From: Nodosilinea sp. LEGE 07298
GTDB taxonomy: Bacteria > Cyanobacteriota > Cyanobacteriia > Phormidesmidales > Phormidesmidaceae
NCBI RefSeq assembly: GCF_015207265.1
Contig: NZ_JADEXE010000024.1
Span: 1 to 40,357 of the forward strand
Direction: 5' to 3'
Length of the DNA stretch: 40,357 nucleotides
The notes under the pieces were generated by a model. The model did no database searches and had not been told where the DNA came from. It saw only the letters and a list, made by a program, of their open reading frames with translations. Every line of letters begins with the position of its first letter. Position 1 is the first letter of the stretch. Positions 18,329-32,753 of the stretch are shown here, in pieces. Both the position numbers and the translations under genes were made by a program.

Positions 18329-18455
18329 GGCCAGCGCCTGTGTCTTAGGTAACCGCTCGTTAATCAAATCATCCTTCACTATCAGTACGACATAGCCGAG
18401 GGGATAAGGTAAGAGGTTCCAGGTGTACGGTTCAGGGTTCAAGGCAAGCCTCGAC

Positions 18456-18517
18456 CCGTGAACCTCAAACCGTTAACCTCAAACCGTGAACCTCAACCGT
18501 AAGCCGTAAGCCGTAAA
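18456..18517. repeat. Short tandem repeats between serine hydrolase and dienelactone hydrolase genes
   Basis: The unit CCGTGAACCTCAAA occurs at 18456-18469, 18470-18483 (one change) and 18484-18496 (one base short). It is followed by three heptamers CCGTAAG, CCGTAAG and CCGTAAA (18497-18517). The stretch separates divergent genes and appears non-coding. Heptanucleotide-type repeats like these are common in filamentous cyanobacterial intergenic DNA. Confidence 0.75.
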
Positions 18518-18575
18518 CCCAAAACTTGATACCTATTCCCCCTCATCCCCCTTGACAAACCTTGGAGGTCAACCT

Positions 18576-29733: not shown

Positions 29734-31128
<1,395 letters not shown>

Positions 31129-31141
31129 GGATGTAGATCCA

Positions 31142-31176
31142 GACCCCTGGGTTTGTCAAAAACCCAGGGGTCTTTT
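31142..31176 (+). terminator. Rho-independent terminator of gap
   Basis: GACCCCTGGGTTT (31142-31154) pairs perfectly over 13 bp with AAACCCAGGGGTC (31160-31172) around GTCAA, followed by TTTT. It lies 13 bases after the gap stop. Confidence 0.93.
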
Positions 31177-31225
31177 CACGCGATCGCCTTCCCTAGTCGG
31201 AATGGCGACATTCAATTGCATCGGG

Positions 31226-31435
31226 CTGCGATCGCATGACATCCCTATGCAATCGAGAAACCATCCGCTGCAATCGCATAACAGGCTCATGTCATTGAGA
31301 AACGGGCTGATGCGATCGCATAACATCCCACTGCAATTGAGTAACCAGGCGATGCAATTGAGAAACCACCTGATGCGATCGCATGACACCCGGCTGCAAT
31401 TGAATAATACGGCGATGCGATCGAGGAACTGAGCC
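31226..31435. repeat. Ten-copy 21-bp tandem repeat with palindromic cores
   Basis: Ten units of 21 bases run without a break from 31226; the last begins at 31415 and is incomplete in match at its 3' end. Each opens (A/C)TGC followed by a six-base core, then (A/C)(N)(N)(A/G)A(C/T). The core is CGATCG in units 1, 5, 8 and 10, CAATTG in units 6, 7 and 9, CAATCG in units 2 and 3, and a variant in unit 4. Because 21 is a multiple of three, both strands have long open frames: 76 codons plus (from ATG 31202) and 93 codons minus (from GTG 31437), with heptad-like repeats. Changes between units are mostly non-synonymous in either frame, so I do not call a gene. Confidence 0.85.
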
Positions 31436-31510
31436 ACGTCCCTGAGTAACGCCCAGCCTACCCATCACAGTTGATTCAGGCTTTAATGGGGGCAGCCCGC
31501 GCCGAGAGTC

Positions 31511-31540
31511 ATGCCCAAAATTTTTATCTCCTACCGTCAA
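31511..31540 (+). pseudogene. Possible remnant of a TIR-domain gene start
   Basis: ATG 31511 begins the peptide MPKIFISYRQ, which is how many cyanobacterial TIR-domain proteins start (first beta strand, FISYR). After ten codons the similarity stops and the frame runs into the 3' end of the minus-strand gene at 31537. It looks like the stump of a deleted TIR gene, but ten residues are thin evidence. Confidence 0.35.
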
Positions 31541-31776
31541 TCATCGGGCTGGTCTTCTGTAAATTGCTCGATCGCATTGACCAACCCCTCAGAATAGGGT
31601 TCTAAGACCGTTGCGCAAACCTGTAAGTCGGCTAGGGCTAGGGCAAACTCATCCGACTCCGAGTGACTGGTTTCTAAGACCTGAATGGCCAGCAAAGCCT
31701 TCTCAAGCTGAGGGCGATATTCTCCTAAATGGCGCTTAAGCCTGGCTAAAGACAGGTCAGAGACTGCTTGAGTCAT
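31537..31776 (-). CDS. Small hypothetical helical protein
   Basis: I do not recognise this 79-residue acidic protein. It is predicted all-helical (SLARLKRHLGEYRPQLEKALLAIQVLE, then FALALADLQVCATVLEPYSEGLVNAIEQF), with one Cys and no signal or membrane segment. The ATG at 31776 has AAAGGAGG eight bases upstream, a very good site. Its start overlaps the stop of the 64-residue gene as ATGA, so the two are coupled and may interact. Confidence 0.7.
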   Translation of the reverse strand: MTQAVSDLSLARLKRHLGEYRPQLEKALLAIQVLETSHSESDEFALALADLQVCATVLEPYSEGLVNAIEQFTEDQPDD

Positions 31777-31967
31777 AGGTTGAGCCTCCTTTCGAGCTTG
31801 GTAATTTGCTGTCGGCAGTTTGCTACAGTCTTTTCCCAGTGGGCAATAAGTCCTTGGTCTTGTTGGCGTTCTGGTTTCTCACGTTCTTTGGCAATTGTGG
31901 CTAAATGCTCTGCTAGTGCTTGCTTTTGCCCCTCTAGCTGTCTGCGATAAAGCTTGTTTTTACCCAC
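31773..31967 (-). CDS. Small basic coiled-coil protein
   Basis: The 64-residue product is very charged and helical (QLEGQKQALAEHLATIAKER, then ANCRQQITKLERRLNL), consistent with a short antiparallel coiled coil. The start is GTG 31967 with AGGAAAC upstream. It lies 24 bases after the metallophosphoesterase stop and overlaps the next gene by four bases, so the three form one minus-strand operon. No family is recognised. Confidence 0.65.
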   Translation of the reverse strand: MGKNKLYRRQLEGQKQALAEHLATIAKEREKPERQQDQGLIAHWEKTVANCRQQITKLERRLNL

Positions 31968-31991: not shown

Positions 31992-32753
31992 CTAATACGC
32001 GGCGCGGGTGGCCAGATCGCGGGGGCGTTTTTTGATCATTGTGGGGTCGAGGTGGGTGATCGCCTCGGCGCACGATCGCACCCGTTCGATCGGCTCAAAC
32101 ACATTTACCTGATAGACTATCTGATTATCCCAGTCGAGGGCGGTAAGCCAGCCGCTGCGGGGGTGGTACACGCCAGTATCGATATCGAGCCAGCCACGCC
32201 CGGCGACAATTTGGCCGGGGTCTACGCCGGGGAAGGTGAAGGTAATGGTGTGCCCGGTGATGATCAGCTTGTCGGAGAAAAAGGGCGTCAGGCTGCTGTG
32301 GAAGGTTTCGCGAATCCAGCACATTTCATAGCTGCTTTGCTCAGCCACGGGCAGCATGGGGTTGACTCCGGCGTGCACCAGCCACAGATCGCCCAGGTCG
32401 ATATAGAGGGGCAGCTGGCGCAGCCATTCGAGGTGGTCTTCGAGGGTAGCGGCGGAGCCGTGGTAGCTGGTGAGAGTGGCCTGACCGCCGCTAAAAATCC
32501 AGCCCTGGAGGGTGGGGGGGTTGATTTTGCCGTCGACAAAGGTATCGAGAATCAGCTGCTCGTGGTTGCCCCGCACGCAGTTAGTAGCGTGGCGGCGCAC
32601 AAAGTCGACTACGTCAGCACTCTTGGGGCCGCGATCGATTAAATCGCCGACGCAGTAAATTTCATCGTCGGCATCGGGCGCGATCGCATCCCACAGCCGC
32701 TGTAGGCCGTCGTAGTGACCGTGAATATCGCCAATAAAAATTCTTCGGGGCAT
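31992..32753 (-). CDS. PPP-type metallophosphoesterase (protein phosphatase / Ap4A hydrolase-like)
   Basis: The 253-residue protein has the metal-binding motifs of the PPP superfamily in order: GDIHGHYDGLQRLW (GDxHG), GDLIDRGPKS (GDxxDRG) and VRGNHEQ (GNHE), with later His in ITGHTITF and LVHAGVNP. Substrates in this group are phosphoproteins (PrpA/PrpE type) or diadenosine tetraphosphate; the sequence does not decide. It is the first gene of a three-gene minus-strand operon with two small helical proteins, which could be regulators or partners. Confidence 0.9.
   Translation of the reverse strand: MPRRIFIGDIHGHYDGLQRLWDAIAPDADDEIYCVGDLIDRGPKSADVVDFVRRHATNCVRGNHEQLILDTFVDGKINPPTLQGWIFSGGQATLTSYHGSAATLEDHLEWLRQLPLYIDLGDLWLVHAGVNPMLPVAEQSSYEMCWIRETFHSSLTPFFSDKLIITGHTITFTFPGVDPGQIVAGRGWLDIDTGVYHPRSGWLTALDWDNQIVYQVNVFEPIERVRSCAEAITHLDPTMIKKRPRDLATRAAY

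Follow-up and report, generated by a model that had tools for sequence, protein, structure and literature searches.

A ten-unit 21-bp tandem array downstream of gap, possibly a non-coding intergenic minisatellite with a constrained core

Ten tandem 21-bp units downstream of gap in a cyanobacterial genome are tentatively assigned, at a probability of roughly 0.4, to a non-coding intergenic minisatellite whose monomers carry a constrained core, perhaps forming in-phase protein sites two helical turns apart. The units stand head to tail, coding from them is disfavoured, and their copy number varies among relatives.

The array and its locus

The window, meaning the whole stretch of 40,357 bp analysed, is contig C240 in a cyanobacterial genome (G000) of 7.25 Mb and 617 contigs. 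Ten 21-bp units occupy 31226–31435 in exact register (no strand assigned), the first unit starting at 31226. Counted from the T at 31227, the unit layout is a core TGYRATYG (columns 1–8), the letters M-R-W-R-A-C (columns 9–14), and a variable linker (columns 15–21). Autocorrelation of the array rises from 0.57 at lag 21 to 0.61 at lag 42 and 0.65 at lag 63, and neighbouring units are 57% identical. In-register triple cores number 13 in the window, whereas 100 dinucleotide shuffles average 0; the ten units and exact register given in the preliminary description are thereby confirmed from the sequence, the autocorrelation, and the shuffle test. A degenerate eleventh unit (31436–31456, strand unassigned) has lost the core, keeps GAGTAAC, and has counterparts in the alignments of G007 and G017. 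The CAATTG found 16 bp before the first unit (31213–31218, strand unassigned), which has the same spacing in the G007 alignment, is likely an eroded, out-of-register edge unit. The ten cores read CGATCG in four units, CAATTG in three, CAATCG in two, and TCATTG in one (at 31292). Two half-changed CAATCG units had been noted before and were again counted (2/10), and the palindromes CGATCG and CAATTG, said to be the usual core, make up 7/10 units; the TCATTG unit has neither palindrome.

Upstream of the array lies gap, encoding glyceraldehyde-3-phosphate dehydrogenase (30076–31128, plus strand; Pfam Gp_dh_N, 2.5e-39, and Gp_dh_C, 4.9e-69), followed on the same strand by an intrinsic terminator read from the sequence at 31142–31176, with a 13-bp stem and a 5-nt loop (stem-loop 31142–31172) and the T tract TTTT (31173–31176). 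One stem pair of this terminator is changed on both sides in the alignment with G007. A consensus scan for promoters and terminators scored nothing, and it passed over the gap terminator stem because the T run is only four long. The array had been described as directly following the terminator; it is indeed downstream of it, but starts 50 bp past the stem. Adjoining the array on the other side is a truncated 28-aa ORF start (MPKIFISYRQ..., 31511–31597, plus strand), which resembles a TIR-like start as judged from its FISYR motif rather than from a database match; G009 has a longer ORF after gap with the same start, and the counterpart start in G007 is frameshifted. The convergent neighbours on the minus strand are a hypothetical 79-aa ORF (31537–31776, no Pfam match) and a metallophosphoesterase gene (31992–32753; Pfam Metallophos, 2.7e-17).

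Orthologous arrays, core constraint, and unit types

The sister species G007 carries an orthologous array behind gap, with 11–12 units as compared to 10–11 in G000; between the two species gap is 89% identical, its third positions 72%, and the flanks 83%. G017 retains just the right-hand array end, G039 just about two units at the left array end, and G010 a short two-unit remnant. The checks of period and copy number proposed in the preliminary description return a 21-bp unit array kept at the orthologous place in G007 and ~2 units or fewer in G010, G017, and G039. The remnants in these three relatives indicate that the array is old and dispensable to the species, and it arose before at least five species of the genus diverged. 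A 433-bp search matched something in 12/26 genus genomes, with few long matches and most consisting of the terminator alone. In G017 (L027), downstream of gap, a palindromic GTAGGTTGGGTT...AACCCA-type sequence stands in place of the array middle and has the look of a small dispersed element.

Orthologous units of G000 and G007 are identical at 162/210 positions as compared to 135.7 ± 7.1 under random pairing, so that orthologues (77%) are more alike than neighbours. Columns 9–14 and the two variable core letters hold their position between orthologues (P 0.0002 and 0.0018, respectively). Positional orthology of the linkers was not above random pairing (P 0.13), consistent with units having exchanged parts; linkers were exchanged between units, and unit pairs are accordingly not fully independent. 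Overall, the array is old, neither freshly amplified nor homogenised, with some linker exchange. In the best alignment, the linkers of units 2 and 3 differ between G007 and G000 by one-base gaps that come in pairs and preserve the 21-bp length, which is suggestive of a length constraint, although a unit-type swap would look alike.

Core letter 2 (G/A) is unchanged between G000 and G007 in 9/10 orthologous units, the tenth showing a C/A difference, which argues against ongoing switching between CGATCG and CAATTG; core letter 5 differs by a transition in 2/10 units and by a transversion in one. Half-changed cores are common, with 4/11 in G007 (three CAATCG, one CGATTG) beside the 2/10 here. The two letters are not significantly associated (Fisher p 0.17 in G000, 0.15 pooled), and there is thus no sign of palindromy itself being restored. 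G at letter 2 is associated with C after the core (p 0.0075), which makes the two core forms for the most part inherited types of unit. In G007, types A (C after the core) and B (A after the core) alternate through all eleven units (permutation p 0.002). Alternation in G000 is broken where the alignment shows one A unit missing, and the test on G000's own array was not significant (p 0.57). Among 26 arrays, six alternate at p below 0.05, uncorrected for 26 tests (the gap array of G007, C348, C152, L173, and L108 and C2_680 of G009).

The columns TG..AT.G exhibited 0/50 changes in orthologous units of G000 and G007, as compared to 48/160 in the other columns (p 4e-7) and 35/201 in the flanks (p 0.0004). 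The core thus changes less than its surroundings, as would be expected of protein sites, under a mask whose TG part was known from other arrays before testing but had not been declared beforehand. With the mask cut down to the four constant letters of the previously described core (C, A, T, G), changes numbered 1/40, again below the flanks (p 0.014). Rotating the mask gave 0 changes at the true rotation only, the other 20 rotations giving 3 to 23. Linker columns 15–21 change more than the flanks (36/70), for which A/B linker exchange accounts in part. At a second locus, AT.G was unchanged at 18/18 positions in each of three species pairs. A/T phasing at 10.5 bp, a hallmark of curved or wrapped DNA, was absent across 21 arrays (second harmonic 0.096 as compared to 0.1 expected).

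Other 21-bp arrays in the genome and genus

The search for other arrays proposed in the preliminary description was made with the loosened core YNATYG, required in triplicate at spacing 21, and further arrays are present, with 78 placements in G000 (37 forward, 41 reverse) as compared to 0 and 1 for the reversed-pattern control and to 2 each at spacings 20 and 22. These are placements rather than arrays, most being overlapping placements within long arrays, and they fall mostly in C12 (17 units), C201, the window array, and C264; further spacing-21 core arrays are found in C255, C287, and C571. A four-core match occurs in 15/26 genus genomes, some in repeats that look coding, and with the motif TGATTG at free spacing, most of the array-like matches listed for G000, G007, and G009 were spaced 21 and 21. 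Class-wide, the core matched in 69/291 genomes, a figure that is not a count of 21-bp arrays, many of the listed matches being TAATTGG-type heptamers. Phage and plasmid collections and distant blastn searches with the array gave no match.

A core-independent census covered 859,782 unmasked bases of G000 in 78 stretches (about 12% of the genome), with clusters inside long ORFs set apart as coding. It returned 32 intergenic repeat clusters: eleven heptamer-like (lag 14), seven with lag 21, 42, or 63 without 14 (four of them at lag 21 itself), and fourteen of other periods (15, 16, 26, 27, 35, 39, 40, 46, and 57). The commonest single non-heptamer period in the census is 21 bp, though not the sole period. 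Three stretches were dropped ahead of the count, namely L152 (contig fetched whole, array known), L158 (which repeats the window), and L182 (selected because of its array). The sample is not strictly random, as ten contigs were taken from the core match list, nine holding a lone, chance-like match and C571 minus its array stretch. The core runs throughout in only the window array among the seven intergenic 21/42/63-bp arrays, with 3 cores in L123, 1 in L135, and 1 in L169; the cluster at L169 1755 could itself be a short coding repeat. The same scan of 399,699 bases of G009 found three intergenic lag-21 clusters (L105 8861, L108 267, and L110 4770). By crude ORF calls, the 16 arrays with both neighbours called are not biased towards any gene context, 6 lying between convergent genes, 6 between divergent genes, and 4 between genes in tandem.

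At a second place, locus B, a 21-bp array lies upstream of a conserved small gene (no Pfam match) with a flank common to 8 genomes, 11 loci being compared (L182 5457–5641 on C348 of G000; orthologous L092–L097 and L102). The arrays there belong to at least two unit families across the 8 genomes, one of which is also present at C201 of G000; place and period outlast unit sequence at this locus. Elsewhere in G000, a 19-unit 21-bp array, almost homogeneous and unrelated in sequence (L185 2282–2680, on C82), adjoins the end of a 744-aa ORF, and two 63-bp arrays of one family (L135 6975–7241 and L196 10304–10571) contain inverted AAGTAACG/CGTTACTT arms.

Possible explanations and known repeats

A constrained minisatellite of this kind would probably have arisen by amplification of a 42-bp dimer that joined two types of monomer (A, TGCRATCGCATRAC plus linker; B, TGCAATYGAGAAAC plus linker). 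Its core TGYRATYG may be retained because it is recognised by something; the two-turn spacing would set all cores on one DNA face, like cooperative protein sites, and a nucleoid-type or HIP1-related protein would be a candidate binder. A protein-binding array with two site types was among the earlier proposals, of which the array of sites has partial support from the core constraint and the exact spacing, and a functional switch between the two types would be hypothetical. In a wider version, rather unlikely as it stands, intergenic two-turn (21-bp) arrays throughout the genus would be in-phase docking arrays for a putative DNA-organising protein, with the core retained while linkers turn over and unit families swap at fixed places. 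A neutral minisatellite, that is, a functionless product of slippage or unequal exchange, is a serious possibility at somewhat less than even odds. Its core columns would have been shared at unit birth, so that exchange between units exposes the variable columns only, and it is consistent with loss of the array in G010, G017, and G039, with the many other intergenic arrays, 21-bp and otherwise, of unrelated sequence, with the lack of gene-context preference, with the shuffled linkers, and with the turnover of unit families at one fixed position (locus B, 8 genomes, at least two families). However, exchange alone would not lower the mutation of shared columns, whose rate in the core is below that of the flanks, and the exact register persists despite deep unit divergence. 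A binding array and a neutral satellite are thus about equally likely, the former slightly favoured because of the core constraint and exact spacing, and the latter drawing part of its weight from the repeated loss, the absence of a shared gene context, and the number of arrays without the core.

Other readings are much less probable. Both strands had been described as open across all units, from which a heptapeptide-repeat protein was thought possible; stops over the ten units number 6, 6, 1, 2, 1, and 0 in the six frames, such that only one frame per strand is really open, the plus frame stopping in the last unit, and the other frames carry stops. One plus frame runs open across the array in G000 as well as G007, terminating in the last unit at a shared stop and with an upstream start at the same place (ATG in G000, GTG in G007); in G000 it corresponds to a 76-aa open frame (31202–31432, plus strand), judged a non-gene. 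In this shared frame, synonymous changes make up 0.146 of the codon differences that involve one base, as compared to 0.248 ± 0.116 with columns permuted (a share at least as large as observed has P 0.79), with third positions least variable, and coding from the array is therefore disfavoured on sequence grounds. The codon-position comparison asked for in the preliminary description thus gives no synonymous excess in the frame open in both species; two frames open in one species only have shares of 0.150 and 0.084, and the sole frame with an excess (0.484, P 0.007) carries 6 and 8 stops. Pfam searches of the array ORFs gave no match, and the locus B frames that are stop-free in all four genomes lack a synonymous excess, which together leave a repeat protein only a slim chance. 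An array of HIP1 octamers (GCGATCGC), altered by deamination or restored by methylation-directed repair, is the least probable of these readings, although HIP1 is dense in the window (53 copies), the full octamer is present in 3/10 units, and Elhai 2015 (PMC4390886) proposes repair that creates HIP sites. The other 7/10 units are without GCGATCGC, orthologous unit differences comprise 36 transversions and 12 transitions with no transition excess, CAATTG units are kept as well as CGATCG units, and the stability of letter 2 in 9/10 orthologous units speaks against the deamination or directed correction originally proposed. It would likewise be surprising if the array were a structured RNA or an extended terminator or attenuator of gap. 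Its position just past the terminator and a weak folding signal (minus strand z −2.48, 2/200 shuffles as good; plus strand z −1.37, 18/200) are in favour, but palindromic HIP1 cores alone can produce such folding, Rfam gave no match at E up to 1 over 30900–31800, and the other arrays share no gene context. No better odds attach to the array being a higher-order form of cyanobacterial heptanucleotide repeats (3 x 7 = 21). Heptamer arrays with a 21-bp higher order do occur in G000 (L196 4376 and L133 9642), as do heptamer arrays matching the core pattern in other cyanobacteria, but no residual 7/14-bp similarity was detected across 21 arrays (mean z −0.35), and the window array itself lacks such a sub-period (identity 0.21 and 0.17 at lags 7 and 14; z −1.07).

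CRISPR arrays, with near-identical repeats of some 24 bp or more and unique spacers, were considered and rejected, the present unit being 21 bp with a conserved part of 14 bp and with linkers recurring between units. The short tandemly repeated repetitive (STRR) heptamers of cyanobacteria have a 7-bp period, which the window array does not exhibit; it differs from them in its diverged 21-bp unit with a constant core, a variable linker, and no 7-bp sub-period. It is like STRR and LTRR in being an intergenic direct repeat of cyanobacteria, LTRR and other conserved intergenic repeats being known from this group (PMC2408588). The TAACTGA heptamers of Beggiatoaceae and cyanobacteria are similarly abundant intergenic direct repeats, proposed as regulator-binding sites, but have identical 7-bp units lying mostly upstream of start codons (PMC4679880), unlike the 21-bp units here with no gene-start preference. 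HIP1 is alike in that three window units carry it and the core is a HIP1-like palindrome, and differs in being dispersed, the text of the HIP1 paper containing neither 'tandem' nor 'periodic' (PMC4390886). Tandem repeats in the genomes of Halomicronema hongdechloris (722, median unit 14 bp; PMC6416890) and Leptolyngbya BL0902 (571; PMC11298460) are only counted in the sections available, with no 21-bp class described there. The kind of element, a bacterial intergenic minisatellite, is known, and no description of 21-bp cyanobacterial arrays was found among the titles and abstract starts of the papers that literature searches listed.

Repeats between bacterial genes tend to be written off as by-products of slippage. 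In the present class, period, place, and core persist across species longer than the remaining sequence, which makes constraint measurable with orthologous arrays. If the core is bound, the array would offer a simple assay for its protein; if not, it would illustrate cleanly how a satellite with an exact period evolves in a prokaryote. The window also contains a second repeat type, an intergenic heptamer-like array (CCGTAAA / CCGTGAACCTCAAA) at 18398–18553.
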